Of a stretch of DNA of 64,000 nucleotides, positions 2,755 through 43,585 are shown piece after piece. Within the stretch, counting starts at the first letter, position 1. Each line of letters starts with the position of its first letter. This DNA is from Asparagopsis taxiformis (lineage: Eukaryota; Rhodophyta; Florideophyceae; Bonnemaisoniales; Bonnemaisoniaceae): positions 124,001 through 188,000 of the forward strand of contig JALQPE010001687.1 of the NCBI GenBank assembly GCA_030407315.1. Reading direction: 5' to 3'. Under the pieces are notes generated by a model, which did not search any database, was not told where the DNA came from, and saw only the letters and a program-made list of their open reading frames with translations. The translations under genes and the position numbers were made by a program.

Positions 2755-2795
2755 TATCCTCCCCTTCAGTCTCGAGTCGAGCACGACTCTTATTC

Positions 2796-5200: not shown

Positions 5201-5201
5201 A

Positions 5202-20220: not shown

Positions 20221-20535
20221 ATGGGCCCAGCACGCTTTCGTCTGTGTTCTCGGAAATGGACGCGGACGTCCACAACCTCTAGTACACCTAGTATTACTAG
20301 GCGGACGTCCATGTTGTCCAGTATTTTTGGATGTCCGCCTAGAACCGGACGTCCATGCGGTCTAGTACGTCTAGTATTACTAGGACGACATTCATTGTTT
20401 CTAGTACCACGGATGTCCTCCTCGGGATGGACTTCCACCATGTCTATGTCCGCCTAGGACGGGCGCCGGTTCAGAAATTCAAAAATTTCGACCCCAGAAA
20501 TTTCTGCCGCCGTGCTCGACATGGATGTCCGCATC
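20221..20535. repeat. GGACGTCC / CTAGTATTACTAG repeat cluster
   Basis: Irregular copies of CGGACGTCCA and its variants (GGATGTCCGC, TGTCCGCCTAGGAC) alternate with CTAGTATTACTAG palindromes. The CCGGACGTCCATTTC word is also part of the repeat module at 22-34 kb, so this is probably related or decayed element end DNA. Confidence 0.6.
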
Positions 20536-20559
20536 CATCACGGCGACCACTCTAATTTT

Positions 20560-21560: not shown

Positions 21561-21745
21561 AAATATTTTCTCCACTATGCAATCTCAAACATGTATGAGC
21601 GTATGCCTTTCCGCTTTGTCAACCCTGAATATTTGTATTCATGTATTCATAAAATAGGGCCACCCACATCCCTATCCCGTTCTGCAAGCTTTACAAACCA
21701 CCAGACGCATACTCCACAACTATACAACAAACACTACTCGCTATT

Positions 21746-21804
21746 TCAGACGACGCGGTACACAAGTAGCATAGGCTATGCTACTTGTGTACCGCGTTGT
21801 CTGA
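21746..21804. repeat. 59-bp palindrome, 29-base arms with one central base
   Basis: Arms of 29 bases differ at one position and flank a single G within GCATAGGCTATGC. It lies about 120 bases before the repeat arrays of the next element cluster. Confidence 0.9.
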
Positions 21805-21924
21805 GACTGAGTCTCAACCTTCCGTGACGCCTTCCCTGATGCGTACAAGTGCGAAACACGTCTAGACGTATATCAGAAGTGAGTGCGGGAATTTTCGGCA
21901 CAGGAGATGCTGGGCCACCAAATT

Positions 21925-23350: not shown

Positions 23351-23370
23351 CGTGTATCGTGCACGGCCAC

Positions 23371-23622
23371 ACATTACCGGAAGCAAGTAGGCGATGAAGC
23401 ACGTACATACCCAATTGTTCTGCTATTTCTAGCATAGACCATCGAGTCTAGAGATGTGATGGAATCGTCCTGGAAATCATGCTCCAACCCACGAGGGAAT
23501 GGACAATCTAGTTTGAAAGCATGGAACGGAAGTACATTATACTAGGTTCATAGATTGGAAGTGATAAAGGAGATGATTATATTCTCGATAATTGTTTACC
23601 AAAGTAGTAGTTGTTAAGCTAT
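23371..23622. other. 3' flank of the second ParB-oxygenase gene
   Basis: AT-rich, no coding sequence. It would hold the 3' untranslated region and polyadenylation site of the minus-strand gene ending at 23623. Confidence 0.3.
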
Positions 23623-26600
23623 CTAGCCGTCGGAAAATTCTTCTTCGTCTTCGTCCTCACTATATTCAGGATCTCCCGGCAGAATAGGCGTTATCGGCAA
23701 CTGTGGAGTTGATCTGCTCAAGATGAATTCTTCACCCGGTGTGAGGGTTCTCTTCTTGGGAGCTTCTGTCGTCTTCATCCGCATGATTCCGAGCTGCCCT
23801 GTCTTCGGCCTACGATCTTTCTTGACCGGGATGGGAACAACTGTCTTGTGGCGAACATTGACAGGTCCCGGTTGACTTTGCCTGGCAGACCGGCGCGGAG
23901 CATTGGGGATTACTTCTTCTTCGAATCCCAACCGCCTGATGAAACCAAACGAAACATTGTCGGGAATCGGATACGACGCATTCCTGAAATACGTGTGATA
24001 CCTCGTTGTCGTGTGTGACACAACTCTGTCGACATGCCCTGCCCCGGCATGTTGTACATAGCCGTGACCGATGAAGACTGAACGTGGCGGAACGATTACC
24101 TTGTTCAGCTTCATCGTCTTGGCGTACATATCTAATTCCAGCGCTTTGGAAAAGACGTACTTGTGGGACCCTGGACACACCCAGATAGGGAATGGGTCAT
24201 CTCCGTTGGCAATAACAAAGTAACCCGGAAGTTGATCTTTGCGGTCGCGAGGAGGAACAGGGAAATCATTGTGTGGGACCTGCCGAGGACACCCCTTTCC
24301 CGTTATCAAAAACCGTCCCCCAGATGCCGGCATGACAAGTTTTTCTCCCGGTAAACCGCACTCCTCCAGCCCTATCAGCCGGACAAGGATTCCCAACCAC
24401 ACATCCAGCAGGGCTCGCCGCGTCACAAACTTGAACCGGTCGATATGCGTCTCATCGTTCTCGGCATAGTCAACCAGGCAGTGGCGCGTAGACGTGAAGC
24501 GAGCCCTCCCGTCATTCCGGTTCTTCTCATCTGTTTCATCGTCCCCCGTATTGACAATGGGACTCCACAGCTGCCGGTTCCCAGGGTCCTTGTGCACCTC
24601 CTCCCCCTCCCACGTTCCCAAAAAGTACCGAAACAATTCCTGGATAGGAATTTCTTCCATGAGACCCAAGTCAAATGGGAACTTGTCCGACGCATCGAGG
24701 TAGCTTACATCCGCGAAATTGTGCATCACCGTATACCCTCGCTCGTTGATTTCCGTTCGGCAATTGTGGAAGTACGCCATACCAGTGCCGGCCTCATACG
24801 AATCCTTCCAGCTTGTAGACATTCGCGCAACCTGGGCGAAGTCCAGCCTCGAGGGTAGAAACGTCGATGTAGGCTCACACATCGCCTTGGCAGCCATCTT
24901 CCACGCTGCGAAAAACATCGGATAGATGGTGTCGATCTCGAAAACAAGATGACGAGCCCGATGTTGTTCCGGAATATGCAGCCCCTCAAACACAGGGTCC
25001 ATCGCCACTTGCTTCAAATACCTCACCTCTCTGCCCTCCTCATCGATTTCCACACTCTCCAATAACAACCTGAGCTCAATCGGGGGCAGACAACCAACCC
25101 TCACCGATGCGATGACGTCCGCGGGACGCTGCGCCAGATGATGCCCTTCAGCTCGGTCTTTGACTTCGAAATCGTCGGGAAGAGATGGCATCCGGTCGTC
25201 GAACAGGAGGTCGTGTTCAGAAGGAGAGTCACGAACGATGTAACCGTCTTCATCGACTTCCACTCCTTCCGGAACAGTGAATGTAATTGTCACTTCGCGG
25301 ACCCCCTTGCTTTCGACTTGGCCCACGTCTGCACCCTGTTTGTCTTCCTCGTCCGAAGCGGTATGGACAGATTCTTGGTTGGAGGGAGTCGCACCAGCAC
25401 GTTGGTTATCTTGGGGGACAATCTCAACGGCAGAATCGGGGGAACGGGCGGAGTCTTCGTCAACCTCATCACCGGAAGCAGTGGCTTGTTGTTGATCGGT
25501 GGGTTTATCAACAACGGCCTGCTCTTCTTCCCCGGCGGATTGTTGTACCACAACCGGCTCTTCTTCCTCGAGGCGTGTGCTCCCCGTCGAGCGAAGTCGC
25601 TGTGAACGGCGGCGGATGCCATGCGAAGCAGGCTCATGTTCGACATTCCGCTGCTTCTTGTGAGTGAGTCTCACATTGGCAGCAGAAGGGCGGCGTTTGC
25701 GTCGAGCCTTAGTCTTCTTCTTCAATGTCGGATTGAAAAACTCTTTCAAGTTCGTTTCCAAATCCTGTAAACGCGTGGTTCTCCGTCGCATTCGAACCTC
25801 ACTGCTCCGGTCGTCCCCTCTATACATTGCAATGGCATTGGTGAGATGCCATTGCAACTCCTTCGGCTGCTTAACCGACCCAATTGCCATCTCTGTGCTC
25901 AGAAATGACTTGCGCATAATACTCTTTGGGCGCCCAAACGCAGCGTACAGAGAATTTGCTATTGCAGTCACGCGACGGACGTATGTATAGAAGTCGTTCA
26001 CGTCAAAGCGTCCATCCGGACGTCCACCATGAGCAGGGTTCAAGTACTCCGAAAGACCACGCAAGACGAAGACAAAGTTTTCTTCCAGCAACTCGCGCAC
26101 TATCTTGTGGTCCAGGTGCGTTATCCCAATCTCGTTGCGGCGCTCGGAATTGTTCAGCTCACGCAACACTTCGTCGAGAACAGGATGCTTCAGCGTTGCT
26201 ATAGCCAAACGCGTCCACCGCCGGGCCGTGTTCGTTGAATTCATCATCCCCATGAACTGCGCCTCGAACAATGTTCGGATGACATCAGACTCACGCAAGT
26301 CGCCAGCGTTTTCCACGTTATTTGCAACAGCAATCGTACGGATGAACTGCTGGATGGACGACAAGATTCGAACCAGGGAGCGCTCCGTCAGTTGCGTCCC
26401 AGTCGTATGGTTCGACTCTGCACTCTTGTGGATGATCTCATGAGGCTGAAGATCACTGTTGTCCTTGCGGCGAAGGTAGTACACATCCAGAGGCTGAGTA
26501 ACCCAGCGCAAGCGGTTTGCGTCCTGTGGCAGCTTGGTTCTGTGCATACGGGTGAGGCGCGTGAAGTCATCGGCAATGCTATGCATAGCATTGAGACGAT

Positions 26601-27579
26601 GCAGTCCGTCGATCACGGTCACGTTCGCATTGGCATGGAATTTGCCATTCTGGAACAGACGCGTGTCGGCGGGCAGATGCGTGTTCTGCGACCTCAGCAC
26701 CGTCACAGTGATACGCGAAGAGCTCACATACCCCACAGCCAACATATTGTTGCGCAGGTCCTCCACGTGGTCTTCTTTCACATCCCGAAGGGTCACGGCC
26801 GGTTCCACTAGCTGCCTCACCAGCACAGTCGCTCCTTCTCCGACGTAATCCGACGTCACAAACTTGGGCACCGTAATTTGCGTCCCCTGCTGCTCACGAA
26901 TGCTTTCCGCCACCTCCGGTTCGTCGTCCACCTCGGTTACGTCCTGCGTAGTAGCTTCGGTGACGTTGGAGCGAGCAGGGTGCTTCGTGCCTCCACTGGA
27001 GGGTCTTGCAGAGCGAGCAGGGCGCTTCGTGCCTCCCGAAACCGGGACGGAGCGTGCTGGATGCTTCGTACCCCCCGAACCAGTGATTTCGCCTGCCGGA
27101 CCGGTACTGGGCATCCGTCCCGAGCTGGCCTGGTTCGTCGCTGCGTTGAAGTTTGACGCTGCAGCAGGGGTACGAATGTCGCTAGGGCCATCCTCCGCAG
27201 CGGGGCGCATCATCCGAGTATCCCAAGGGTAAAACGCCGCGGCGTATGCTCCACCCATCGTCTCCGGCGGTCCCTCGGCGCCATCAAACATGTACGGGAA
27301 CGGGAGGTCCTTGAACTTGTCCTTAGTCGCAATGTTGCGCACGACGATATAGTCCGCCTCGTCGGTTTCCGGCAGCTGGTGGTTGTGCAGCGTGCGCGGA
27401 AGGCCAACATCGCCACCAGCAGTGCTCACCGAAGCCGTCCCAATATGCACAGCCGCACCGTCCACGTCCGCAAACAAATTGACATCGACGCCGCGCTTGA
27501 GTCCGCGCGACTCCGCTGACGCGCTCACTTGATCGCCGCAAACCGTTGAAAACAAACTGCTGAAATGCGTATCCGCCAT
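23623..27579 (-). CDS. Second, diverged ParB/Srx-like plus 2OG-Fe(II) oxygenase protein (1318 aa)
   Basis: Numbering is from the ATG at 27579 (M-A-D-T-H-F); the open frame extends to 27699 without another ATG. A region with three G-G-T-K-[HR]-P-A-R-S repeats precedes the ParB/Srx-like domain, whose signature is D324-G-L-H-R328. A helical middle follows, then a lysine-rich basic patch (K-K-K-T-K-A-R-R-K-R-R, nuclear localisation-like) and a long acidic linker. The C-terminal oxygenase domain shows P-H-N-D (H1103, D1105), W-V-C-P-G-S-H-K, G-H-G-Y-V-Q-H (H1172/H1177) and T-R-Y-H-T-Y-F (R1193). HxD, distal H and R-x-H occur in the same order and spacing as in the 13.5-kb protein although overall similarity is low. 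The gene lies between two copies of the hairpin-module array, so it is probably cargo. Substrate unknown; a DNA or chromatin target is inferred. Confidence 0.75.
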   Translation of the reverse strand: MADTHFSSLFSTVCGDQVSASAESRGLKRGVDVNLFADVDGAAVHIGTASVSTAGGDVGLPRTLHNHQLPETDEADYIVVRNIATKDKFKDLPFPYMFDGAEGPPETMGGAYAAAFYPWDTRMMRPAAEDGPSDIRTPAAASNFNAATNQASSGRMPSTGPAGEITGSGGTKHPARSVPVSGGTKRPARSARPSSGGTKHPARSNVTEATTQDVTEVDDEPEVAESIREQQGTQITVPKFVTSDYVGEGATVLVRQLVEPAVTLRDVKEDHVEDLRNNMLAVGYVSSSRITVTVLRSQNTHLPADTRLFQNGKFHANANVTVIDGLHRLNAMHSIADDFTRLTRMHRTKLPQDANRLRWVTQPLDVYYLRRKDNSDLQPHEIIHKSAESNHTTGTQLTERSLVRILSSIQQFIRTIAVANNVENAGDLRESDVIRTLFEAQFMGMMNSTNTARRWTRLAIATLKHPVLDEVLRELNNSERRNEIGITHLDHKIVRELLEENFVFVLRGLSEYLNPAHGGRPDGRFDVNDFYTYVRRVTAIANSLYAAFGRPKSIMRKSFLSTEMAIGSVKQPKELQWHLTNAIAMYRGDDRSSEVRMRRRTTRLQDLETNLKEFFNPTLKKKTKARRKRRPSAANVRLTHKKQRNVEHEPASHGIRRRSQRLRSTGSTRLEEEEPVVVQQSAGEEEQAVVDKPTDQQQATASGDEVDEDSARSPDSAVEIVPQDNQRAGATPSNQESVHTASDEEDKQGADVGQVESKGVREVTITFTVPEGVEVDEDGYIVRDSPSEHDLLFDDRMPSLPDDFEVKDRAEGHHLAQRPADVIASVRVGCLPPIELRLLLESVEIDEEGREVRYLKQVAMDPVFEGLHIPEQHRARHLVFEIDTIYPMFFAAWKMAAKAMCEPTSTFLPSRLDFAQVARMSTSWKDSYEAGTGMAYFHNCRTEINERGYTVMHNFADVSYLDASDKFPFDLGLMEEIPIQELFRYFLGTWEGEEVHKDPGNRQLWSPIVNTGDDETDEKNRNDGRARFTSTRHCLVDYAENDETHIDRFKFVTRRALLDVWLGILVRLIGLEECGLPGEKLVMPASGGRFLITGKGCPRQVPHNDFPVPPRDRKDQLPGYFVIANGDDPFPIWVCPGSHKYVFSKALELDMYAKTMKLNKVIVPPRSVFIGHGYVQHAGAGHVDRVVSHTTTRYHTYFRNASYPIPDNVSFGFIRRLGFEEEVIPNAPRRSARQSQPGPVNVRHKTVVPIPVKKDRRPKTGQLGIMRMKTTEAPKKRTLTPGEEFILSRSTPQLPITPILPGDPEYSEDEDEEEFSDG

Positions 27580-27926
27580 GATTGTTGAGTTGGAAAGTAA
27601 AAGAGATGGTTGACGTTGACGTATTCGAGTGATGTGGATGGTAGGTTTCACGTTGCTTGAAGAATGGTCGTGAACGCCAATCGCTGGAAATAATAACACA
27701 ATACAACCGAAATTTTGTTAGGTACACACCTATCGTGACCGCTGGAATGCAAGACAGGCAATCGAGATGTGAGTGTCCGTTCGGAACGGGCCCGAGTCGG
27801 GCTCTCGAAACCTGACGAGGTGGCGTGAAGCAGGCAGTGTCCTTGATGTGTAATGTGTTAAAATTACAGCTGTCAAGCTAGGCGGCTTTTGGGGCGGCTG
27901 CGAGCACCCCTTTATCCGGGGAACAC

Positions 27927-28985
27927 CCTGATTTGAGTTAAAATTTGGGCTATTCTCAAAAACATGCACATGTGAACATGTTTTTGAGATGGGGGTGTGC
28001 CGTACGGCACAATCGACCGCCCAAATCGTTGATTTTTGCAAGATTTTTTGTGCCCGAAATTTTAGAATTTCTGGGCTGGCCAGCAGTGCATCTGAGCTGG
28101 ACATCCACCGGACGTCCATTTCAGGTTGATCGTGTGCTGCCTACATCCACGCATTGCAGCAACTAAACAGGCGGGTTCACTACTAATATAAAGTGCACGG
28201 AATATGAGTAACGTGATGGGTGAGTAGTGTTTGTGTTGAGGGAGTAAGGCGGGACCATTATGAAACACGGAAGAAGATGCGTACCTAGCATAACTTAGGC
28301 TTGAAGCCTGGAATCGACCCATCTTTCGGCGCCATTTAGCCTCACAGTTAGTGCTTACAGAAGCCAGTGATGACCCCGCTCGGGGCGGCGGCTCCGGTTC
28401 CTGGGGCCGTTGTGGCCAAATTAGACACCCTGATTTGAATTAAAATTTGGGCTATTCTCAAAAACATGCACATGTGAACATGTTTTTGAGATGGGGGTGT
28501 GCCGTACGGCACAATCGACCCGCCCAAATCGTTGATTTTTGCAAGATTTTTGTGCCCGAAATTTTAGAATTTCTGGGCTGGCCAGCAGTGCAATCGAGCT
28601 GGACATCCACCGGACGTCCATTTCAGGTTGGTCGTGAGAGAGTGAGGCGGGACCATGATGGAACAAGGACCAAGACCTGTCCCTGGCGTATTGAGCCTGA
28701 AATTGACCCTTCGTCAGACGCCATTTAGCCTTACAGTTAGTGCCTACAGAAGCCAGTGACAACCCCACTCGGGGCGGCGGCCGGTGCCTGGGGCCGTTCT
28801 GGCCAAATTAGACACCTTGATTTGAATTAAAATTTGGGCTATTCTCAAAAACATGCACATGTGAACATGTTTTTGAGATGGGGGTGTGCCGTACGGCACT
28901 TTCGACCGCCTAAATCGATAAAATTTTGCAATTTTTTTCCTGCCCGAAATTCTACAAGTTCTGGGCTGGCCAGTAATGCATTAGC
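27927..28985 (+). repeat. Right-hand copy of the hairpin-module array
   Basis: Three direct module copies (27927, 28429, 28816) with the same intervening sequence as in 22255-23350. Blocks such as GCGGGACCATTATGAAACAC are near identical. The two arrays form direct repeats of about 1.06 kb around the gene at 23623-27579. Confidence 0.9.
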
Positions 28986-29469
28986 TATCTCCTCTAAACC
29001 GATTCTAACAAGCAGAAAGAATCCTCTCCTTCATGACGATGCTCTCCATCGTCTTTTCGAAGCCATTTCCGTACGAAAAATAATCGAAAAACATATTTGA
29101 CTTTAACCTAACAGCTATCGCGAGCACCGTACTCAGCTATATTTCCTCTGTAATTTCCTTCCTCCAACCAATCAATAGCCGCTTGGTCACAGGCTTAAAA
29201 GCCTTCCACTATCTGTCCTATCCATCGAAGACCCTCGGAGGGTTCGATCCAGGCCTTGATCACCCATGATGGGTGTGCAACCCGAGAAAATGAAAATGGA
29301 ACATATTGCGACAGGGACGAGATATCATTCCATGAAAGAGAACTTCTCTTTCGTTTACTTTTTTCTAACAAGATTCTAAACGTCTACAAACCCTATGTCG
29401 TCCGTCCGTTTTCATCCCGGAGAGATGTGGATGTGAGGTAAGACGCAGTGGTGATGTTGTGTTGATTCC
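28986..29469. other. No gene recognised
   Basis: Spacer inside the element. A GGGTTCGATCC word near 29239 resembles a tRNA T-loop but no tRNA fold can be built around it. Nothing else was supported. Confidence 0.3.
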
Positions 29470-29740
29470 CACAGACGGAGGTGGAGGAGGTGGCTACGGA
29501 GGAAGCCTGGAGAACTTGTCCGGTACTGACATCTCACATGTTGCCATTAACGGAGGTGGTGGAGGAGGCTATGGTGCAAGCCTGGAGAACATGTGACTCA
29601 CATCTCGCAGATGTCAGTACCCATGGATGAGAAGAAAAGCATGTTGAGTGCGGTTCGGATATCGGTTCGGATATTCGAGATCCATTGAGACGGAGGTGGT
29701 GGAGGAGGCTATGGTGGAAGCCTGGAGAAGAATAGAGTAG
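29470..29740. repeat. Three-copy GGAGGTGGTGGAGGAGGCTA repeat
   Basis: Copies near 29475, 29550 and 29693 read GGAGGTGG-GGAGGAGGCTATGG-GC/GAAGCCTGGAGAA. In one frame they would encode glycine-rich G-G-G-G-G-Y-G segments, but stops interrupt it. It may be a remnant of a glycine-rich coding region. Confidence 0.6.
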
Positions 29741-30024
29741 TCCTATACCCATGGATCACAAGAAGACGTTGTTGGGCTCCTTTTCGAAGCCCATTCGTCT
29801 CTTGAATAAATTTAGCACCCAAATCATATACGATTGCCGAGTTGACACCCCGTATGTCTCGTTGGTAGAAATAGCAGGGGTTCCACCACTCAGCTGGCGG
29901 GAAGTAGTTACTGATTATATGAGATATGGCTTAGCTCCCGCCAAAACCGATAGCTCTGGGCTCAGGTTCTCCAAATGTGGTTATACGAATGTGTTCTGAC
30001 AATGCTAGAAGACGAATATCTGCA

Positions 30025-30206
30025 TCCTGATTTGAATTAAAATTTGGGCTATTCTCAAAAACATGCACATGTGAACATGTTTTTGAGATGGGGGTGTGCC
30101 GTACGGCACAATCGACCGCCCAAATCGATGTTTTTTTGCAATATTTTTGCTGCCCGAAATTGTAGAATTTCTGGTCTGGCCAGCAATGCATCTGAGCTGG
30201 ACATCC
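30025..30206 (+). repeat. Hairpin module, plus orientation, before the methyltransferase-SET gene
   Basis: A 182-base copy of the module, complete from TCCTGATTTG to GAGCTGGACATCC with the 12-base hairpin arms and GTGCCGTACGGCAC. It mirrors the copy at 34005-34186, so the gene is bracketed closely by an inverted pair. Confidence 0.9.
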
Positions 30207-30556
30207 CCATGTCCAGTGGCCGTCCGGATGTCGCTCACCTGGTAAGCGTGATGCACCTGTGACAACCTATGTGACTGCAGTCACAGCCGCCATGGCGGCC
30301 GTGCAGTACAACCCTCAAAGACAGGGAATCACAATCTTTTTAAAATTTTTGTCTACCACGTATCCGTCACAACTTATTACCTACACCGGTTACGGGTTTC
30401 AAGACCTTTCCAGTGCTGTGTACCCGTATACTCTGTTCCGTTCGATATCAACCAGTGTTCCTCACGAAAGAGTGCAAACGTCACGAGATACGTCGTCAAA
30501 TTTGACTGTCTCGCCGAGCGGTCGCCATCCTGTACCGAATTTCCACTCATTCCATT

Positions 30557-30934
30557 ATGACGAATAAGCGCAGGCGCAACAGCAATCCGATCGTTGACGA
30601 CGCAACCGTGCCAATTCTGCGCGAACCCGCTAGCCCTTGGGAGGATTCTAGTGACATGGGTACACGTCGAAACGTAGGTCGCGCCGCCCGCGAAACTACT
30701 CTCGCTGGCAAAGACTTCCTCCGCCTCTTGCTGGATTTGTTCGCCCACTCAAGTTTCGCAGACTTGACGGACAAGCCGGGAGGTTTCACATACGCGGACC
30801 TTGGCGCTTGGGTTGCGCAGGGCACGGAAGAACAATTTCGGCGCTGCAAGGTCGACTCAGCATGGCCTTCAGCGGTCGTTCGAAGAATGCTGGAGTCGAG
30901 GCGGATGTTGCCGAAATCGTCATGGCAGAGATGA
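30557..30934 (+). CDS. Probable N-terminal part of the methyltransferase-SET protein in another frame
   Basis: 125 codons from ATG with protein-like composition: a basic start (M-T-N-K-R-R-R-N), then hydrophobic helices (F-L-R-L-L-L-D-L-F-A-H). It overlaps the next frame by 73 bases from the ATG at 30862. Around 30880 the text V-V-R-R-M-L-E-S in this frame joins smoothly to E-A-D-V-A-E-I-V in the next if one base is allowed for. I infer either a single-base frameshift in one original gene or, less likely, two overlapping genes. Confidence 0.5.
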   Translation: MTNKRRRNSNPIVDDATVPILREPASPWEDSSDMGTRRNVGRAARETTLAGKDFLRLLLDLFAHSSFADLTDKPGGFTYADLGAWVAQGTEEQFRRCKVDSAWPSAVVRRMLESRRMLPKSSWQR

Positions 30935-33759
30935 ACGTTGAGCGAGCCAAGCAGATTGTTCGTCTGGCATTACCGATTGCCGAGTTTTCAAGACAGGATG
31001 AGCGTATCGGGCAATGGGTTGAGCACTGCATCCTTTCTGGGATCGTGCCGCAGACCTTCCTTATTGGATGTAACATGCTTCCTTCGCCACTACAGGCGCC
31101 GCAGCGCGGGGAACCAAGCGCCTTCGTTCTTGCTCCACCGGAAACGTTCGAGGTATTGATGTATTTCCAAGCGTTGTCTATCATCCGAAATCACAACAAG
31201 AACCTGCCGCGTCGCCGAATAGGCGACGCGGCCGAGGAGGGGAACGAAGCCGCACGCGTCCCAGCCCATCGGAAAAGCACTAATCGAGCTTGTTACGTGG
31301 TTCAAGTTTTATACCATGCTTGGACCGATGTGGCCTTCGCCGCAAAGTTTTCCAGCTTCGAAGAGTTGATGGCGCCGTACATCATTTTCGACAGCAGTGA
31401 GCATTGGTTTGACGTGCTCGATGAAGGTCTATTCGCACCGATAGAGCAGAAGCTAGATCTCTACCACGACAAAGCTCCCCTATCTCATCCTGATGGATAT
31501 GGTGGAAAAGTAGAGACAAGAACCAGTGCGCAGCACAGTGTATTTAGGGACCTTGTGAGGAAGTTCTTCGACCGGTTGCAGTTTCTTATCGTCAACCCGG
31601 ACCTGTACACCTGGCCGGAGTCCGACCGCTGGGGGGCGCTGGAAATATACTTGTCAAGCGGAAATCCGGACAAGCTGCCAGCGTACTTTGACACCCTCGA
31701 CGAAGACGTTATGGCTGTCCTCCGCCCGGCACCACAAGCCGCGGACGCAGAAAAGGTCCCCAAGCCGGTTGATGACACTCCCACTCGTCGCAACACAGGA
31801 GGGAGAGGTTTGGTTCCGTCGACAAGACACACAACCAGGCTTCAACTTGGACCTGGGAGGACCAGTCTTACTGCCCAAGGGCCGTCTCCCCCGTCACCGT
31901 CACCCCATGCGACAGAAGAGCAGGAAAGTGAAGGGCAGGCTCTCGCAAAGGACTTTCTTTCGAAAATGAGTCAGTATTGCCGGGTGTATGACGTCCCTTT
32001 CGAAGATTTGGTCAGTGCCGACGAGAGCCGAGAACACGTGCCCATCACGGGCAACGTTCAGCTCATTCTGACAGATCCGCCCTACAATGTTCGTCGTAAG
32101 AGGAACGATTCCAACTCTTCGTACGACAGGCTAACTGCAGAAGATATGCAGGCTAGCATCGAAGTGTTTGACGAGCTGTTGCGCCCCGGTGGCCACGGCA
32201 TCGTGTTCTGCTCCGTTTTGCAGTTCTACGAATGGTTCCATTACTTGGAAACGTACAAAGGACCGCAGTCAGAAGGCCCAACCGATGCTGCTGCCAGTGA
32301 TGACGGGTCGGATGAAGAAGAGGTTACGTCCATGAATTCGGACTCCGAAGCATCGCAGCACAGTGGCGAAGAAAGTGCGGATGAGGAGGAGGAGGAGGAC
32401 GAGGAGGAGGAGGACGTCGTTCGGAATTCAGTTTTCTTCGTTGACGAGGTACCTCTGTTGTTTGTCCGACTACCTGGGCACCTCTATCAAATGCCGGGGC
32501 GGAAGAGGTACCAACGCATGAACATGGCAGAGGTCGCTATCCACTTCTGGAAGCGAGGTGTTCCGTTCAAGACTGGAAGCGAGATGGTGGCCTATAGGAA
32601 CCACGGATACATGGACGGCACGTACCCGGCGTGGTGCAACGTCACCATCAATATGCCCGCCATCGATTCGAATGAGATGGTGTGGCGAACAAGGAGCACA
32701 ACCGGTGCTACGGTCAGAGTTCGTGCAGAGCAGAAGAGCGTCGCTCTCATGATGGAGTTGATCAGCCAGCATTCACAGCCTGGTGATATTGTTGTCGATC
32801 CATTCTCTGGCACTTTCGCAACGGGAAAAGCAGCTATGAGCTTGCCTGAGCACCGTGTTTTCGTCGGCAGTGACATGGACAAATTGTGTGTGGCACGATC
32901 GCTTCCAAAGCTGTGTGCAGTCATGTCACGTGTAATTCTTTCAAACAACACTGACATGAGGGTCACGACAGAAGCGAAACAGAGTGCTGAGAAGTTCTTG
33001 GCGTCCCCCTCTGTCACGATGCGTACGCAGAGGGAACGCAGGATCATCGAACCCCCACCTGGCCTTCCCCTGTACCAGAGGTTCCCGAAATATATTCGGC
33101 AGTACCTCTGGCAGCTGTGCCCAGAGTCGATTGCGTCGCACGAGCACATGGAAAAACCGGTACATTATTGGCCACCTTCCCTGCGCCGCTGGTTGCAAAC
33201 TGAAAACCCTCGCGTGATGCGGGCACACGATTGTGTTGCGAAAAAATTGAGCGTTCGACCATCGCTGATTAAGCATCCAAATGCAGGAAGAGGGCTCTTC
33301 GCTGAACAGACATTTAATGTTGGCGACGAAGTATGTGCATACTACGGAACTGTTGTGTACTCTGATATGAGCAAGGAGTCGATGAGGTTCGCGTACGGAG
33401 AGGGTCACATGGCGATAACGAAGGAAACATTCTTGATGTATGCCATCAAGCTGTATGCAACAGCGGAGGACGACGAAAACATCGAGCATCCAATTTGGAT
33501 TGTTCCGGCTCCGTTCTGTTCGGCGCAGTTCATCAACGACCCGCGGTATTTGCGAGGTGAGGACACTCCGGCGGAAGACACCAGGCGGATGGCCAACGTC
33601 GAGTTTGTCGAGAACTACAGCAGCGGTTCGACGGGGAAGAAGCTCAAGGCGAAGGACCTAGAAAATCCGAAGATCATTGTAGTACGTGCAATCCGCGATA
33701 TCCGTCCGGGGCAGGAGCTCTACGTTCATTATGGGACAGCGTTTAGAGCATGGAATTAG
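30862..33759 (+). CDS. Bacterial-type DNA amino-methyltransferase fused to a SET domain
   Basis: Positions count from 30808, where the frame is already open; the first ATG is 30862. Residues ~1-400 are unassigned. The methyltransferase has motif IV D423-P-P-Y-N before the S-adenosylmethionine motif I D664-P-F-S-G-T-F-A-T-G, the permuted order of beta-class N6-adenine/N4-cytosine enzymes; D-P-P-Y rather than S-P-P-Y favours N6-adenine. A long acidic insert (~495-535) splits the domain. From ~816 to the end lies a SET domain: G-R-G-L-F-A, Q-F-I-N-D-P-R, N-V-E-F-V, and R-P-G-Q-E-L-Y-V-H-Y-G with the catalytic tyrosine, which in relatives methylates histone lysines. No MT-A70 (D-P-P-W) motif is present. 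One protein could thus modify both DNA and histones. It sits inside inverted repeats without a transposase. Confidence 0.8.
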   Translation: MAFSGRSKNAGVEADVAEIVMAEMNVERAKQIVRLALPIAEFSRQDERIGQWVEHCILSGIVPQTFLIGCNMLPSPLQAPQRGEPSAFVLAPPETFEVLMYFQALSIIRNHNKNLPRRRIGDAAEEGNEAARVPAHRKSTNRACYVVQVLYHAWTDVAFAAKFSSFEELMAPYIIFDSSEHWFDVLDEGLFAPIEQKLDLYHDKAPLSHPDGYGGKVETRTSAQHSVFRDLVRKFFDRLQFLIVNPDLYTWPESDRWGALEIYLSSGNPDKLPAYFDTLDEDVMAVLRPAPQAADAEKVPKPVDDTPTRRNTGGRGLVPSTRHTTRLQLGPGRTSLTAQGPSPPSPSPHATEEQESEGQALAKDFLSKMSQYCRVYDVPFEDLVSADESREHVPITGNVQLILTDPPYNVRRKRNDSNSSYDRLTAEDMQASIEVFDELLRPGGHGIVFCSVLQFYEWFHYLETYKGPQSEGPTDAAASDDGSDEEEVTSMNSDSEASQHSGEESADEEEEEDEEEEDVVRNSVFFVDEVPLLFVRLPGHLYQMPGRKRYQRMNMAEVAIHFWKRGVPFKTGSEMVAYRNHGYMDGTYPAWCNVTINMPAIDSNEMVWRTRSTTGATVRVRAEQKSVALMMELISQHSQPGDIVVDPFSGTFATGKAAMSLPEHRVFVGSDMDKLCVARSLPKLCAVMSRVILSNNTDMRVTTEAKQSAEKFLASPSVTMRTQRERRIIEPPPGLPLYQRFPKYIRQYLWQLCPESIASHEHMEKPVHYWPPSLRRWLQTENPRVMRAHDCVAKKLSVRPSLIKHPNAGRGLFAEQTFNVGDEVCAYYGTVVYSDMSKESMRFAYGEGHMAITKETFLMYAIKLYATAEDDENIEHPIWIVPAPFCSAQFINDPRYLRGEDTPAEDTRRMANVEFVENYSSGSTGKKLKAKDLENPKIIVVRAIRDIRPGQELYVHYGTAFRAWN

Positions 33760-34004
33760 GGTCACGAAAGATGTTTTCATTTCGACTACAAATAAAGCTA
33801 CGTTCCAGAGTTGAAGTATATCATATAATGCAGCATGTCCAGCCACCATTACTCCAGGGTGAAACCTATTGAGCAGTACTCGCCTGTCAAAAACCAATCG
33901 TTCACACTCTAGATGCACTTCGTCCGAGCAGTGAACCTGACTGCTTGGATGCTGTTATGCGTGCAGATGCAAAATACACGACCAAGTTGAAATGGACGCC
34001 CGGT
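33760..34004. other. 3' flank of the methyltransferase-SET gene
   Basis: AATAAA at 33790-33795 follows the stop by 30 bases and is a likely polyadenylation signal. No other feature. Confidence 0.35.
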
Positions 34005-34186
34005 GGATGTCCAGCTCAGTTGCATTGCTGTCCGGCCCAGAAATTCTACAATTCAGGGCAGAAAAAAATATTGCAAAAAACATCGATTTGGGCGGTCGAT
34101 TGTGCCGTACGGCACACCCCCATCTCAAAAACATGTTCACATGTGCATGTTTTTGAGAATAGCCCAAATTTTAATTCAAATCAGGA
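34005..34186 (-). repeat. Hairpin module, minus orientation
   Basis: Reverse-complement copy of the 182-base module, forming an inverted pair with 30025-30206 and with 27927. Outside it, 34187-34235 continues as the terminal sequence shared with 27862-27926. Confidence 0.9.
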
Positions 34187-34418
34187 CGTCTTCCGGACAT
34201 AGGGGTGCTCGCGGCCTAGCTCTACAGCTGTAATTGTACCTCATTAAATACTGTTGATGACTGCCTACCGTATACAATCTGGGCTGTTGGCGTATTATCC
34301 GGTACTTGACCTGACCTGAACGTTCATCGCAGACCGTTGTGGTTACCGACACTATACAGCAATCTTTTTTGTATCTCGTGCAACTCAATCGTTCCATCGC
34401 TTCCGGGAAAGCTTCATT

Positions 34419-36128
34419 ATGCCGCCGCGTATTGCGAAGAAAGCTCCAAAGCCTCCGGGCCTCCAGAAAACCCGGTCAGCAGCTGCTGTATCGAGTGCCC
34501 GACAATCCCGTGCGAAGAAGCGGTCTGGGCCTACCGGCAGCATTGAACCGCGGTCCGGTAGTCGCAAGACGGACCGGCGCAGAACTGGGGATCCGCAGCG
34601 AGAAAGTGAGGAAGGAGGAACGGCGCGGAGAGAGATGGGGCTTGACCGAGGCAAGCGTGCTCGCAGGGACAGTGAACATCATGATGATGACATGATAGTG
34701 GCTCAAAACATGTTGGAATTGCGGCAGAGTGCTATGGCAAAGGTAGTTCCTCCCGGGTTGGCAGATGCGGAGGTGCTGCAGACGGAGTCCCAGCCGGGGG
34801 TTCCCGAGACACTGGAGGCTGTGACCCCCACTGCGCCAACTATGCCGAGTACATCAGCCCCAGCAGGTAATGCAGTCAGGGACCCGAGGATAGCGGCAAG
34901 GGATGTTGTTTCTGAGCAACGTTCACAGGATGCCAACTATCATCGGCGGTCAGGTGGTACTGAGGGGAGAGAGCAGCCGGAGTGCGGGCCTCGTCACAAC
35001 AGACTGTCATTGGTGCCAAATATGCGCGTAACGCCCCCGCGACGTCAGGCTATTGGCGATGGAGGACATCATAATCCCGATAGCGTGCGAGATGGGGGGA
35101 CGGTGAGGGCAGAGAGGTTGCATCCGCCGGAATCCATCGATTTAATGGCGAGTCGCATCAATGCGCAGAAGAAGAAGATCGCGGAGCTGGAAAAAAAAGT
35201 GTTTAGCCAGGACATAGCAAACAAGGCGCTCACCACGGAGATAGTTGCGTTGGAGGCTAAGGTGAAGACTCTGCAGGCGGAAAATGCCAGCCTTACTGCA
35301 ATTGCGAGAACAGGTAGAATCAGTGATCACGGTGGCGGTAAGTCGAAAATACAGAAAGCCATTCCTGTGAAATACCTTGGAGTTCTTAGGGCGGTTGAGG
35401 AAAACCTGACAAAGTGGTGCAAGAACGAGACTATGGAGCTGGACCCTATAGCGGAACAAACGCAGAGACGTTGGACTGGACGTACCATCGAGGTAGAGCC
35501 GGTAGAAGGGGCACTTTGGAGCGAAAACGGTGTAGGATATATTGCTACCCCTCCGGGCTATATCATCAAGAATCTGCAGTGGTATACACCTTCGTACAGA
35601 GACGAGAGTGATCTGCTGAATGACTTGGTGCGACACGTACTGCGTCAAAGTCCGTGGTGTGATGTGTTTTCCGATGAGGAGCAGCGTGTGTGCTGTCAAG
35701 AGGCTGTGGCGGGGAGCAAGGAATTGAAAGTGAAGGTGACGCAGAAACTGTCCGACGTGATGAGTGCACGGAAGCGTAATGCGAGGGACAGATTGTTCGG
35801 TTCGCTGGGGTACACGAAATTAATGTCTAGATGCACGATGCTGACGACGCGAGCTGAGATGGACGAGCGAGAGGATCAAAAGCGCGAAGCGTCTGAGAAG
35901 CTTTTGAAACGGGAAAGCAACGGTGATTTGGATATGGGGAGGTGGCGAACGGCACCGTTCTCAGAGCTGCGATACAGCAAAGGCATGGTTCCTGACAGCT
36001 TCGAAATGGAAGTGAATGGTGATGCATGGTTTAACAACCGAGTAGCTGCAAGGAACAAACGGACGTTGTCGAGAGCGAACAGCGGACTAGTGCACAGTCA
36101 CGGCATGTGTTTGCAAGCCGTACTGTGA
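34419..36128 (+). CDS. Coiled-coil protein of unknown function paired with a transposase
   Basis: 569 residues from ATG. A basic, proline-rich disordered N-terminus (K-K-A-P-K-P-P-G, K-K-R-S-G) is followed by low-complexity sequence to ~240. A coiled coil (~243-293; L-E-K-K-V, A-L-T-T-E-I-V-A-L-E-A-K-V-K-T-L) precedes a folded C-terminal region (~305-530) rich in W, C and charged residues. I do not recognise the fold. It converges with the transposase gene at 36526, the two stops being 397 bases apart. CACTA-type elements often carry a second gene whose product binds the element ends, so this may be a TnpA-like accessory protein. That is inference from position and from the coiled coil. Confidence 0.6.
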   Translation: MPPRIAKKAPKPPGLQKTRSAAAVSSARQSRAKKRSGPTGSIEPRSGSRKTDRRRTGDPQRESEEGGTARREMGLDRGKRARRDSEHHDDDMIVAQNMLELRQSAMAKVVPPGLADAEVLQTESQPGVPETLEAVTPTAPTMPSTSAPAGNAVRDPRIAARDVVSEQRSQDANYHRRSGGTEGREQPECGPRHNRLSLVPNMRVTPPRRQAIGDGGHHNPDSVRDGGTVRAERLHPPESIDLMASRINAQKKKIAELEKKVFSQDIANKALTTEIVALEAKVKTLQAENASLTAIARTGRISDHGGGKSKIQKAIPVKYLGVLRAVEENLTKWCKNETMELDPIAEQTQRRWTGRTIEVEPVEGALWSENGVGYIATPPGYIIKNLQWYTPSYRDESDLLNDLVRHVLRQSPWCDVFSDEEQRVCCQEAVAGSKELKVKVTQKLSDVMSARKRNARDRLFGSLGYTKLMSRCTMLTTRAEMDEREDQKREASEKLLKRESNGDLDMGRWRTAPFSELRYSKGMVPDSFEMEVNGDAWFNNRVAARNKRTLSRANSGLVHSHGMCLQAVL

Positions 36129-36448
36129 CGAGAGAGGCTGTTGAAGTGTGGCAAAGCGGAGAGGGGTCTGGAATTGTTCATGTCGTTGATGATGTAAACC
36201 GCTGCTCATCACTTGTTCTAGTGTCCGAGGATTGGATTCAATCGCATATTACGTCAAACCTCGGTGCTGTAATGGATTGTGTGATTGCGCAAGGACTAAT
36301 TGGCGCAGAACTTTTCGTCGTTGACCCATATGCTGGACACCTGAGTGCAAACCTGAATGTCGAAATCAATGCCCCACAGTATGGGGGCATGGAGCGGCGC
36401 CATGCAGCCACTGCTGATAACGGTTTTGGCGTAATGGAGGATGGTTGA
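36107..36448 (+). CDS. Small ORF overlapping the 3' end of the coiled-coil gene
   Basis: 113 codons in a different frame, overlapping the preceding stop by 22 bases. The predicted protein (E-A-V-E-V-W-Q-S-G, V-L-V-S-E-D-W-I-Q-S-H) has normal composition. It may be the true C-terminus of the coiled-coil protein reached by a frameshift, or chance. Confidence 0.25.
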   Translation: MFASRTVTREAVEVWQSGEGSGIVHVVDDVNRCSSLVLVSEDWIQSHITSNLGAVMDCVIAQGLIGAELFVVDPYAGHLSANLNVEINAPQYGGMERRHAATADNGFGVMEDG

Positions 36449-36525
36449 AATTAGTGCAGTAAATGTGACGTTGACTAGAAGGTTTATCATGTAGTACATT
36501 ATCAATAGAGTGCTGCGATTTAGAT

Positions 36526-39500
36526 TTATTCTTCTTCATTATCATCTGTGAATTGGTAATCAGTGTTGGTGTAGAAGCGGTTGAGATAGAAACGGTGGTC
36601 CGACCAGTGCATTTGTTTCGTAAATGGCTTGACTGGAAAGTTACTTCGTACGATGTGCACGGTGCCAGATATAGTAGATGCAGGAATGAGGTCAAACCAA
36701 GGACCACCTGCACTGTGGGATGCAGTGTCATTGCTGTCAACGGATCCGTTGTCCGGGTCCCATGTGGACCACTTTAAACAAATGCACCCAAGTGATTTTT
36801 CCACAGCGGTTTTTGGGGCAAAGCAGGTCATATACTGAACGAAAGCGAGTTCTACAGGTTGAAACAGGTTTGGAGACTGCAGGCGTACCAGTGCCAGGAC
36901 GCGCCCTACCCATATGGTTCTGTAGTCATCGGCAGTTCCGGAGATGACGACAAAGGAGTACTGCGATCTCTTTGCGGGGCCGAACGATGAAGTTGCAAAG
37001 ACGCGCTGCTGCTTGTGCCTCGACACGTTTGTGGGGCGAAGCATGCCACTGTGCGGGTCAAAGTCGTCGGCATCTGGGACGTACCCTCCCATGACGTAGG
37101 CGGACTTTACCACGGTGACGGAAATGTCCATGTCATGTATTGGAGGGCCTTCTGCCGTGGCGCGCAGTCTAGCGAGGGTGAGGAACGCTTGTGCAGCTGT
37201 GTCACCGAGTTGCTGGAATAGCGTTATGGTGCCAGACGGGAACGAGGAGTTGTGCAGAGGCAAAAGAGTGGCAGGATCGGGCTGTCCGTCGATATCTGCA
37301 ACGAGGAGGGTTGCATCGGGCAGCAGGGAGGCAAAGTCGTGCAGTGCAACGGTGAATCCGTCGCGAACGAGTACTGCACCGTCTGTGGGCGATATCATGC
37401 GTGGGTTTCCCAATGTGTTGGATGGGGTGTGACCAGTTGGAGTGGCCAAGGAGAATTCCATGTGGCGAATAGTCTCTTCCATGGCTGTGGAGCGCCTTCG
37501 AGAGGTTTTCCTATAACTCTGTTTGAACAGAAGATGCGAGTGTTCGTAGGGGCCTGCATCAATGTGTTCCAGGGCGCCATATCTCTGCAAGTCACCGGGA
37601 AGATGGTCTAGAAGATGGAACTTGAAAGTTTTGAGACCTGTGGTGTGGAATGGGCCGAGGGTGGAGAGCATTGATTGTTTGAAATAGGAAATGGAGTTCT
37701 GGAGGCTTTCTAGTTCGGCGGCAGTCCAGTGCTTGATGCGACCGCGTTTCATGACCCATGCGACGAGGTCAGAGTATTGCGTGCAGATGGAAGTGAGGGG
37801 GGCTGTATCTACTTCGTCACAGCATGTGTCAATGAATGCTGCGATGAAAGGGAACACCATGTCGACATGGTGATAGTCTTTGGCTGCGAGCATGCCGCGT
37901 ATGCCGTCCTCCGTGAAGAGGCCGTTCAAATTGGTGCCCTTCTCACCCTTGGAGAAGTCGACATGAAGACCGGTGATGTAGTAGTCGCGTTCGATAGCGG
38001 ACAGAATGCTGTTTGAGCCGGCGAGGATGGATTTTTTCACCTTCTTGAAGGTGCGAGGTGTCCCGGAATGGGAGGCAGTGGTGGTGGTGAGGTCTGGGGA
38101 GCTGAGGCGGTGGACAATGCACTGTTTGATGAGCTTTGAGATGCCGAGGTGGAGATTGTGCAGAGGCTCGAAGGAGAAAATGTTGTAGGGGTCTAGGGGA
38201 CTGTTGGTGGGTAAAAGAGCGGTCGATTCGAGGACAGAGTGTTGTTCGAGGAGGGAGAGAGCTTCGAGCGGAGCAGTTGTATGCTCCTGAGCGCTCTCTT
38301 GGCGTGCAGAGCGTGTATCATCGAGGGAGCGGGGCTGGTGTGGCGCGGTGGATTCAAGTTGAGTGGCGGGGATGTAGCAGCGGTGGCAGGGATGTGTGGT
38401 GGTAGTGCTGTTGCGAGTGCATGACAGCTCTTTGGCCTCTGGAAAGTCGCAGCAATAATTGGCTAGGATGGGAAAGCATTGGCGGGCAGTTGCAGTGGAG
38501 TCTGTGCAGGGGAACCCGGAAGAGAACGCGGTGGATAGGGACGAAAACACTTTTTCGAGTGCTTTATGAAGAATATCAATTTTGCGAGCGCGACTAGCAG
38601 AACTAGAGGTTGTCGGCATTTCATCACCGAACAAGGCGTTGGACGAAGGGTTAACAATGTACGGAAGATACCCGACGATGGTGAGGCCGGTACGGATGCA
38701 GTGGCGACGGAGGGGGGCGGAGAAGTTGAGCAGTGTGACGTGTATGGGGTATGCGACGATTGCGGAGCTCTTGAGGCTTGTGCTGCTCTTGTCGGAGTAC
38801 ACTTGGAGGAGGCCGGCAAAGGAGGAAGCGGTGGGATCATTTTCCTCTGCCCATACGACCTGTGGATCTTCCGAGAGCTGCACGCGCTGTCTAGTAACCT
38901 GGTGCAGCGTTTTCGCGAATTCTGTGTGTAGGGGATGAGAAAATATTGCGGTGCCGTCTGGGGCGGTCTGTGGGGAGGGGTGGAAGAGAGTATTTTGGTC
39001 GTTAGCCAGTGCTAACTGCCTGCGGAGCATGTCGACTGGGTCGCGGAGGTACAGCTGTGCCGAGTACTTACCGGTTTTGTCTGGAATGATGTGGCTCTTG
39101 TAACCTTCGGTGCGGAAATGTGTTTCGACCATGGAAGCGGTAACGTGGCGACATTCTTCTACGGTGCGAACGGCGCTGTTGAACTTTTCTAGGGAGAATG
39201 CGGGGTCTTGTAGGATGGTGATGACTTCGCTCACGCGGCCAGCGCCGGCCTTGTACTCGAGGGTTGTGAGACTGGCGGCGAGGGATTGCACGAGGAGGTC
39301 TGCGCGGGAGGGGGTTGAGGTTGGTGGCAGTGGAGCGTCACAGGGTGAGTCGCTGGAGGAAGCACGACCAGATTCTGGGTCTGGGGAGCTGGGTTGCGGG
39401 GAATCATGGTCGCCGTTTCGAGCAGGCTCATGGGTGACGGCAGGGACACGAGCGTTGTTGAAATGTTGGGGAGAGGGGTTGAAACGGTAGCGACACATTC

Positions 39501-39567
39501 GCTCATGCAGCGCGAGCGCATAAGCATCTACGCAGTAGTAGAAGCATCCTTCATACTTGCATTCCAT
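36526..39567 (-). CDS. Plavaka-like DNA transposase (CACTA superfamily), with N-terminal zinc finger
   Basis: 1013 residues on the minus strand in one frame. The N-terminus holds a C2HC zinc finger (C3, C8, H21, C25), as often seen in Plavaka transposases. Downstream are Y-P-I-H-V-T-L-L-N-F-S with the R-R-H-C...G-Y-L-P segment, a C-x2-C pair (H-P-C-H-R-C-Y), F-E-P-L-H-N-L-H-L-G-I, and H-L-L-D-H-L-P-G-D-L-Q-R-Y-G-A-L-E (E667) followed by Y-E-H-S-H. This last run is the characteristic helix bearing the final acidic residue. It is related to the 9.0-kb transposase but clearly diverged. It faces the coiled-coil gene tail to tail, so the two probably form one autonomous element between about 34.24 and 40.4 kb. 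I could not find matching terminal repeats. Assignment is by motif recognition only. Confidence 0.8.
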   Translation of the reverse strand: MECKYEGCFYYCVDAYALALHERMCRYRFNPSPQHFNNARVPAVTHEPARNGDHDSPQPSSPDPESGRASSSDSPCDAPLPPTSTPSRADLLVQSLAASLTTLEYKAGAGRVSEVITILQDPAFSLEKFNSAVRTVEECRHVTASMVETHFRTEGYKSHIIPDKTGKYSAQLYLRDPVDMLRRQLALANDQNTLFHPSPQTAPDGTAIFSHPLHTEFAKTLHQVTRQRVQLSEDPQVVWAEENDPTASSFAGLLQVYSDKSSTSLKSSAIVAYPIHVTLLNFSAPLRRHCIRTGLTIVGYLPYIVNPSSNALFGDEMPTTSSSASRARKIDILHKALEKVFSSLSTAFSSGFPCTDSTATARQCFPILANYCCDFPEAKELSCTRNSTTTTHPCHRCYIPATQLESTAPHQPRSLDDTRSARQESAQEHTTAPLEALSLLEQHSVLESTALLPTNSPLDPYNIFSFEPLHNLHLGISKLIKQCIVHRLSSPDLTTTTASHSGTPRTFKKVKKSILAGSNSILSAIERDYYITGLHVDFSKGEKGTNLNGLFTEDGIRGMLAAKDYHHVDMVFPFIAAFIDTCCDEVDTAPLTSICTQYSDLVAWVMKRGRIKHWTAAELESLQNSISYFKQSMLSTLGPFHTTGLKTFKFHLLDHLPGDLQRYGALEHIDAGPYEHSHLLFKQSYRKTSRRRSTAMEETIRHMEFSLATPTGHTPSNTLGNPRMISPTDGAVLVRDGFTVALHDFASLLPDATLLVADIDGQPDPATLLPLHNSSFPSGTITLFQQLGDTAAQAFLTLARLRATAEGPPIHDMDISVTVVKSAYVMGGYVPDADDFDPHSGMLRPTNVSRHKQQRVFATSSFGPAKRSQYSFVVISGTADDYRTIWVGRVLALVRLQSPNLFQPVELAFVQYMTCFAPKTAVEKSLGCICLKWSTWDPDNGSVDSNDTASHSAGGPWFDLIPASTISGTVHIVRSNFPVKPFTKQMHWSDHRFYLNRFYTNTDYQFTDDNEEE

Positions 39568-40167
39568 GTCGAGTTTTGACGCAAAAGGGAGGATTGCGAG
39601 CTGAACAGGGGAGACTGTGCCGTCCAGATGCGACCAATTTTATTTTTGTGGTGCTTTCGAGACTTGGAATGTAACGTGTTCGTTCGTAGTTTTGTGGGTA
39701 GTAGTTTTGTGCTCACTCCAGCTGGCATCCCAACGGTGGAATTTAACCGAGAGTTCAATCATTTCCAACTGTTACATCACATTGCGTGCTGGCAATGTGT
39801 GCATGGAAGGACGAACGACCACCCTGGGAGATGAATTTTCAATTAATTCATTTGTAATAATAAACTTTTTTATTTCCGAACTTCGTGGAATCTGAATGTG
39901 CTTTACAGCGGATATGCCACGGATCATGTAAGGAAAGCAAATGGATTCTCATATATATGATTATATGTTTATATTTGTTGTTCTCGATCCGGATCTCATT
40001 GTTCGGGAATCAGAGACCATGGCTTGGGCCATACTCAATCTCACTGCCGGCGATGATTTCGAGTATGCACAGCAAGACTTAAGCGGACGCTGAAAGCTGT
40101 CCGGTCGACGCCGCAGGCTCCACTCCGCCCTCATCACCGACTGATATTCTTTGACCGACTTTGCTTT
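39568..40167. other. 5' flank of the transposase gene, no gene recognised
   Basis: AT-rich with no supported coding region. It should contain the promoter of the minus-strand transposase. Confidence 0.3.
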
Positions 40168-40205
40168 GTACGTGCGCGAATCTTGATCAAGATTCGCGCA
40201 CGTAC
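40168..40205. repeat. 38-bp perfect palindrome
   Basis: Two 19-base arms with no spacer centred on CTTGATCAAG; outer bases GTACGTGCGCG. It is perfect in this sequence and lies 271 bases before the chromovirus 5' LTR. Confidence 0.95.
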
Positions 40206-40476
40206 CTTCGTTCCATCCTCTACCCTCGAGGGTATGCGTTGAGGGGAGCGTGGGTTTTGAGTCTGACTATTTCCGTTGATGCGATATTTTTCATGGGAAG
40301 CCTGTTGACTGATGGTGTGTATTGAGCGGAGGATAGAAGAGAGGTACGTGAAGTTTTGAAAGTATGCTGTGAGGGAAGGTTGATTTTGAGTCTGACTGTT
40401 GTGGTTGATTCCGATGTTGTGTAGATGATGCAGGAATGTTGATGACGGAAGGTAAGTTTCACTGAGCACCAAGATG

Positions 40477-41139: not shown

Positions 41140-41140
41140 C

Positions 41141-41158
41141 TGGTCTTCCGACCTAGAA
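41141..41158 (+). promoter_or_regulatory. Possible primer-binding site
   Basis: TGGTCTTCCGACCTAGAA begins two bases after the LTR end, the expected place and TGG start for a tRNA primer-binding site. I cannot name the tRNA. Confidence 0.35.
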
Positions 41159-41243
41159 GTTGCTACGAGCATAACGACAACCAACGAGGTTGAGCTCTTT
41201 TACGTTAACGAGAAGCTACGTGCTACGCTACAGACGACGGTCT

Positions 41244-43524: not shown

Positions 43525-43585
43525 CGACCTCCGCTGACGAAACACCACTCGAGGTGGAAACGAGTCACGATGACGAACGAGCTTC

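Follow-up and report, generated by a model that had tools for sequence, protein, structure and literature searches.

The window analysed here, 64,000 nucleotides of the red alga Asparagopsis taxiformis (assembly GCA_030407315.1, contig JALQPE010001687.1, positions 124,001 to 188,000), holds a DNA transposon carrying a gene for a two-domain protein. Judged from sequence and predicted structure, a single polypeptide begins with a conserved N-terminal region, continues with a beta-class DNA amino-methyltransferase (MTase) domain and ends in a SET domain. Transposon-borne DNA methylases and transposon-borne SET genes are each known; their fusion appears to be the new part. The link between DNA marks and histone marks normally runs through separate proteins reading one another, whereas here both catalytic folds reside in one protein of a selfish element. 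Moreover, selection appears to have maintained the fusion while a recent burst filled much of the genome.

In the window copy, an open frame of 983 amino acids without internal stops is matched by the N6_N4_Mtase profile of Pfam at residues 417-692 (E 2.4e-15, 57.5 bits for a cut-off of 26.7) and by the Pfam SET profile at residues 827-976 (E 8.2e-7, 29.8 bits for a cut-off of 22.4). Both matches are far beyond chance. The original prediction, made from the letters of the window, had read a permuted beta-class enzyme from two motifs of this frame and a complete-looking SET domain after them, and had proposed profile searches and structure prediction as checks, which returned both domains. DPPY and DPFSGTFATG do lie at residues 423-426 and 664-673. 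Motif IV thus precedes motif I and the target region falls between the two, as in the beta class, and the predicted structure of the MTase part matches CcrM-type enzymes, giving it the fold of known beta-class members. CcrM, M.HpyAVI, MboIIA and RsrI share this catalytic fold and motif order but occur in bacteria as separate enzymes, with PDB chains of ~230-370 amino acids. The predicted SET part matches the SET domain of MLL1 (6u9n; Foldseek E 9.7e-5, prob 1.00, TMt 0.57). The N-terminal region (residues 1-370) was barely covered by the fold searches, and the MTase domain holds an acidic insertion of low confidence at about residues 488-540.

Among nine distinct proteins of the family, eight have DPPY and one has DPPF; none has SPPY. 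Since DPPY is indicative of N6-adenine specificity (PMC8885841, in its available part), the MTase is probably of the N6-adenine type. The SET domain of the window family has the motifs AGRG (GxG), YYG, FINDPR and ELYVHYG, the last with the catalytic tyrosine.

The ATG at 30557 and the TTG at 30808 are in different frames, the window copy being frame-shifted near 30.85 kb. In 18 of 20 genomic copies, all chosen for frames of at least 1032 amino acids so that the proportion is not a rate, an unbroken protein of 1064-1079 amino acids runs from an ATG matching 30557 with MTase and SET in frame. Of the two others, one is without the expected start and one without the exact MTase motif searched. The genome searched comprises 141.49 Mb in 3156 contigs. 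When the best 150 of 1661 SET candidates were retained and 11 of these rows were set aside (10 host-like ones with stronger matches and one interrupted by four stops), an open frame of at least 1060 amino acids was found in 65 of the 139 rows taken as copies of the window SET.

The transposon and its copies

Sequence comparison identifies the carrier as a DNA transposon of ~20-22 kb. Its transposase is of the Plavaka family, and it is bounded by terminal inverted repeats (TIRs) of 47 nt and by target duplications of 2 bp. The TIRs, 87% identical, were exposed by comparing a copy on contig C350 with the window, where the left one starts with 5'-CGTCTGTGTTCTCGGAAATGGACG at 20239; the termini of the element read CGTCTGTGTT..AACACAGACG. 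The right end is absent from the window because the element is cut off at a long terminal repeat (LTR) element starting at 40477. It had been proposed at the outset that the gene is carried between inverted repeats. The repeats exist and the gene is transposon-borne, but those repeats, at 30025 and 34005, belong to an internal family and are ruled out as transposon ends.

Collinearity between the copies and the window extends well past the MTase-SET gene. In all three extended copies, each of them partial, the order is an accessory open reading frame (ORF; minus strand), the MTase-SET gene (plus), a coiled-coil ORF (plus) and the Plavaka transposase (minus). Protein identity among these copies is 97-100% in the larger pieces. 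Lower values were obtained in C348 for part of the accessory ORF (92%) and for the coiled-coil ORF (93%), which stands at 84% in C20. The window copy lacks 255 bp at 36048, which makes its coiled-coil ORF shorter than that of the C350 copy. On the accessory-ORF side, positions 1-15534 of the C350 stretch (L135, L033, L018) show a 5.5-kb inverted duplication (99.6%) with its copies opposed.

Termini were matched manually among the first 100 listed places of each, and the ends of 10 complete copies were read. An identical 2-bp flank, and none longer, was found in eight of the ten, against a chance of ~1/16 per copy. Five copies measure 20.0-21.4 kb, each enclosing a SET place; the five others are derivatives of ~11 kb, all with the duplication. 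In two further copies of ~14 kb, which lack the accessory ORF as judged by size and alignments, the 2-bp flank fits by eye in one and not in the other. The transposase profile and the 2-bp target duplications are both those of a Plavaka DNA transposon.

One of the ~11-kb copies, at 6193-17321 of contig C14 (11,129 bp), has the same TIRs, no ORF of at least 150 amino acids and no similarity to the element proteins; by its sequence, it is a non-autonomous derivative. Much of it is built of the same 182-nt repeats as the window element, in palindromic order. As this derivative, the sole ~11-kb copy read, keeps the repeats and the termini, both are probably cis-acting. Within the 182-nt repeats of the window, a 36-nt near-palindrome, TCTCAAAAACATGCACATGTGAACATGTTTTTGAGA, occurs in seven exact copies (the first at 22282-22317) and one inverted copy (34123-34158).

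Genome-wide, a 33-nt terminus was found at 2723 places with at most 3 mismatches (control 0) and the exact right terminus at 1219 places. Under the same threshold, and again with a control of 0, 39-mers from the MTase site, SET, the transposase and the accessory ORF occur at 970, 956, 988 and 899 places, all these DNA-pattern counts including fragments. The similar 39-mer counts indicate that the four form one co-amplified unit. At ~950 copies of ~20 kb, the element would represent ~13% of 141 Mb, a rough estimate that errs on the high side, many copies being fragments. For comparison, DNA transposons are reported to make up 33.48% of the A. taxiformis L6 genome (PMC12115072, in its available part). 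Matches to phycobilisome linkers numbered 13, one of them on contig C340, which also bears an MTase-SET copy. They indicate the nucleus of an alga with phycobilisomes, most likely a red one, although such antennae occur in glaucophytes as well.

Pairwise identity among the 18 full-length copies has a median of 99.66%. Together they carry 40 synonymous and 38 nonsynonymous variants, which gives a pN/pS of 0.28 (0.25 when calculated by copy pairs) in a sample chosen for long frames. A neutral simulation expects 56.2 nonsynonymous variants out of 78, and none of 5000 runs gave a value as low as that observed. In SET, 10 synonymous variants stand beside 2 nonsynonymous ones (pN/pS 0.056, P 0.0002). 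The MTase has 8 and 9 (pN/pS 0.315, or 0.21 by copy pairs), and the N-terminal part gives a P of 0.047. DPPY, AGRG and ELYVHYG are intact in all 18 copies. As read from these variants, the recent lineage is under purifying selection, most clearly in SET.

Relatives and origin of the fusion

In a collection of 5.8 billion proteins, scoring was confined to the 7999 candidates with most words in common and yielded eight matches, one near-identical and the rest with 25-33% identity. A second protein search, with an alignment, returned six proteins, none of them new. MTase and SET are both over the Pfam cut-off in P0003, P0004 and P0008; in P0005, SET is truncated.

A search of the genome with PF01555 (best 150 of 2605 candidates) revealed further multi-copy MTase families, of which six loci were read. 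Two of these loci, L160 (contig C97) and L165 (contig C64), define a second MTase-SET family, with a DPPF site and 430 places. Its SET domain is matched by a SET profile of our own (hidden Markov model, HMM; 4e-30) and, for L165, by Pfam SET at 27.5 bits, over the cut-off. L165 also has a DGAHR motif, and the C64 copy adjoins an accessory-type ORF and a fragment of a transposase-like ORF related to that at 9013-12714 of the window. The other four loci, L161-L164, are multi-copy beta-class MTases without a SET match. DG(E/H/M)HR motifs are found near the N-terminus in L161-L163, not in the shorter L164 frame, and the Cys-rich C-terminal tails of L161, L162 and L164 gave no Pfam match and no Pfam finger. 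Within this enlarged set, the GxG and catalytic tyrosine of SET are kept in the window family, the second family, P0003, P0004 and P0008, the tyrosine being retained in five of the nine distinct proteins.

A tree built from 110 MTase cores unites the 15 transposon-type rows in one clade (100/98), three of these rows being duplicates or near-duplicates of others. This clade splits into a group with SET, including its decayed or truncated forms (100/97), and a group without SET (100/99). The topology suggests that a bacterial-type MTase was acquired once by these transposons. It also suggests that the SET fusion is old and was in place before at least two transposon families of this genome diverged. 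Among 99 viral and bacterial loci, drawn by MTase similarity among the matches listed, none of 3920 ORFs of at least 80 amino acids matches the element SET HMM at E<=1. A genome-contig scan with a single protein found no relative, and tblastn against phage records found no match. A recent capture of a host SET gene was considered and is unsupported, the best of the six host-type SET loci (out of eight) that match the element SET HMM reaching 15.3 bits.

The accessory ORF has a DGLHR motif towards its N-terminus and HxD...H towards its C-terminus, the HxD and H being invariant in five aligned sequences, so that a 2-oxoglutarate-Fe (2OG-Fe) oxygenase is possible. No match was found in Pfam, PHROG or NCBIfam, nor in the PDB at E<=10 for the C-terminal part (two-row alignment), and none of 7094 candidates matched at E<=0.001. 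For a ParB/Srx assignment, the accessory ORF and some relatives offer the DG(x)HR motif only, with no Pfam ParB match. Homology of the ParB-like part with P0004 and P0005 is unsupported (hhalign probability 0.83%).

Several known systems share one side of this arrangement. The bdelloid rotifer N4CMT is a host gene coding for an SPPY, N4-methylcytosine enzyme with a chromodomain reader (PMC8885841), whereas the element protein has DPPY, a SET domain and hundreds of transposon copies. HarbingerS and MuDR transposons of Phytophthora are likewise DNA transposons with a SET histone-methyltransferase gene, but belong to other superfamilies, and no fused DNA methyltransferase is mentioned in the available part of the paper citing them (PMC12730594). 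According to the same source, fungal TET-positive Plavaka elements also associate a Plavaka transposase, with target duplications of 2-3 bp, and a DNA-modification cargo; theirs is an eraser, that of the window element a predicted writer. Since the fungal PlavakaA and PlavakaB termini are TGT..ACA or CATCA..TGATG and thus differ from those described above, the window element is assigned to neither sub-lineage. In Amoebidium, the cargo named for Plavaka giant repeats consists of tyrosine recombinases, with no MTase-SET protein mentioned in the available text, which reports that giant-repeat genes match red algae (PMC11244446). Finally, LINE, DIRS and Gypsy elements carrying their own DNA methyltransferase have been described, one of them under purifying selection (PMC5890265). 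These are retrotransposons with cytosine-5 or, in DIRS, Dam-like N6A enzymes, and a SET domain is unmentioned in the part of that paper available.

For A. taxiformis itself, a figure legend of the genome paper lists 'site-specific' and 'adenine-specific' DNA methyltransferases on the mbb contig, and the terms 'SET domain' and 'transposase' are absent from its main text, in the part available. Our searches of the open-access PMC literature brought up no transposon protein in which a DNA adenine methyltransferase is fused to SET; a prior description may exist in the supplements of PMC11244446 or in Repbase reports, which lie outside that scope.

Possible roles of the fused protein

The reading that we hold with middling confidence is that the protein would act as a dual DNA and protein methyl writer, keeping the copies of the element active and aiding their escape from silencing. 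One protein would use S-adenosylmethionine at two sites. The MTase domain would methylate the N6 of adenine in DNA, probably that of transposon copies, and the SET domain a lysine, either in a histone or in some other protein located there. With both marks in place, the chromatin of new and of resident copies would stay active and recognisable, and the accessory protein, if an oxygenase, would trim opposing marks. If active, the fusion would represent a natural case of direct coupling between DNA and histone marks. It would also offer bacterial-type adenine methylation a way into a eukaryote via transposons, in a seaweed of agricultural interest. What was originally observed in the window is confirmed; the interpretation given to it, that the element possibly marks its own copies, is partly supported.

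A bolder extension, which we find rather doubtful, is that the element carries a self-contained epigenetic kit (an N6-methyladenine and lysine writer with a possible oxygenase eraser) and that the N6-methyladenine system of the host is transposon-owned. The ~950 places, with the ~430 of the second family, would then account for a large share of the adenine-methylation and chromatin landscape of the host.

A number of observations speak against the dual-writer reading or its supports. Taken by itself, the MTase region shows 9 nonsynonymous variants out of 17, which is not significant (P 0.068), and motif I is altered in one of the 18 full-length copies. The canonical SET motif is NHS/NHxCxPN; in the element, FINDPR...NVEF stands in its place, with the asparagine kept. 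SET is degenerate in P0006, P0007 and P0009, so its activity may be dispensable in some relatives. The 2-bp duplication is present in just three of the five complete copies of ~20 kb. The tree has long branches, which makes the placement of the MTase among bacteria unsure. The oxygenase idea draws on motifs only, and the model of the accessory ORF has a mean local confidence (pLDDT) of 29.6.

The decay of SET in these three relatives, where the MTase motifs stay, together with the modest SET scores and the replaced NHS motif, would also fit a protein in which the DNA methyltransferase acts alone and SET, having lost its methylating activity, serves for docking or dimerisation. We regard this as unlikely, for SET is the most constrained part of the 18 copies, and its GxG and catalytic tyrosine persist in both families of the genome and in three distant relatives.

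Just as unlikely is a role of the MTase in timing or licensing transposition through methylated or hemimethylated ends, with SET modifying the transposase or a partner. Dam-type methylation of the ends times IS10 and IS50 transposition, and here a beta-class enzyme of the N6A type shares its element with a transposase, while the C14 derivative keeps the termini and 182-nt repeats. Transposition timing alone, however, leaves the SET domain unexplained.

The protein might instead silence, either as self-restraint or by suppressing competing elements through repressive marks. SET enzymes often silence, and the bdelloid analogue works towards silencing (PMC8885841, in its available part). This appears improbable, as ~950 near-identical places point to success, not restraint. 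Lastly, the frame shift of the window copy could have betrayed a chance ORF or an assembly artefact, such as two separate genes joined by assembly. This possibility is negligible, being ruled out by the continuous frames with both motifs in the 18 copies (picked for long frames), by the same fusion in distant proteins and by the second family.

Features of the window and neighbouring elements

Table 1. Features of the transposon in the 64,000-nucleotide window
Feature	Position	Strand	Basis or remark
Transposon as present in the window	20239..40476	+	TIR match, collinearity with C350 copy; right ~1.9 kb absent
Left TIR, 5'-CGTCTGTGTT...	20239..20285	+	47-nt right TIR, 87% identical, known from other copies
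Internal array of 182-nt repeats bearing a 36-nt palindrome, to the left of the minus-strand ORF	22251..23355		Repeat comparison
Accessory ORF, 1318 amino acids from ATG (1358 from GTG as listed)	23623..27579	-	Possibly oxygenase-like, by motif only
Second internal repeat array	27923..28981		96.5% identical to 22251-23311
Internal repeat left of MTase-SET gene	30025..30206	+	Repeat comparison
MTase-SET, N-terminal part	30557..30934	+	Different frame in window copy
MTase-SET open frame, 983 amino acids	30808..33759	+	ORF translation, Pfam
Beta-class DNA amino-methyltransferase domain, residues 417-692	32056..32883	+	Pfam, fold match; DPPY 32074-32085, motif I 32797-32826
SET domain, residues 827-976	33286..33735	+	Pfam, motifs, fold match
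Internal repeat, inverted relative to 30025-30206	34005..34186	-	93% complementary
Coiled-coil ORF, 569 amino acids	34419..36128	+	ORF listing; 761 amino acids in C350 copy
Plavaka-family transposase ORF, 1013 amino acids	36526..39567	-	PF18759, E 1.9e-24, 86.9 bits for a cut-off of 26.3

The LTR element abutting the transposon, at 40477-51319, is Ty3/Gypsy-like, with LTRs of ~640 bp at 40477-41116 and 50682-51319 that are 96.9% identical; transposon sequence does not resume beyond it. Carriage of the MTase-SET gene by a retrotransposon is ruled out, this Gypsy-like element being separate and truncating the right end of the transposon.

Another element lies to the left, at 9013-12714 and 13527-19747. 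Its transposase-like ORF is 48.9% identical to the C64 fragment, and two of its ORFs are related to the accessory ORF. The two ORFs scanned, at 9013 and 13527, gave no Pfam match. At 58803-62211, two ORFs read like KsgA-type and MnmG/GidA-type genes, which we take to be those of the host; this suggests that the cluster of elements lies near ordinary genes.

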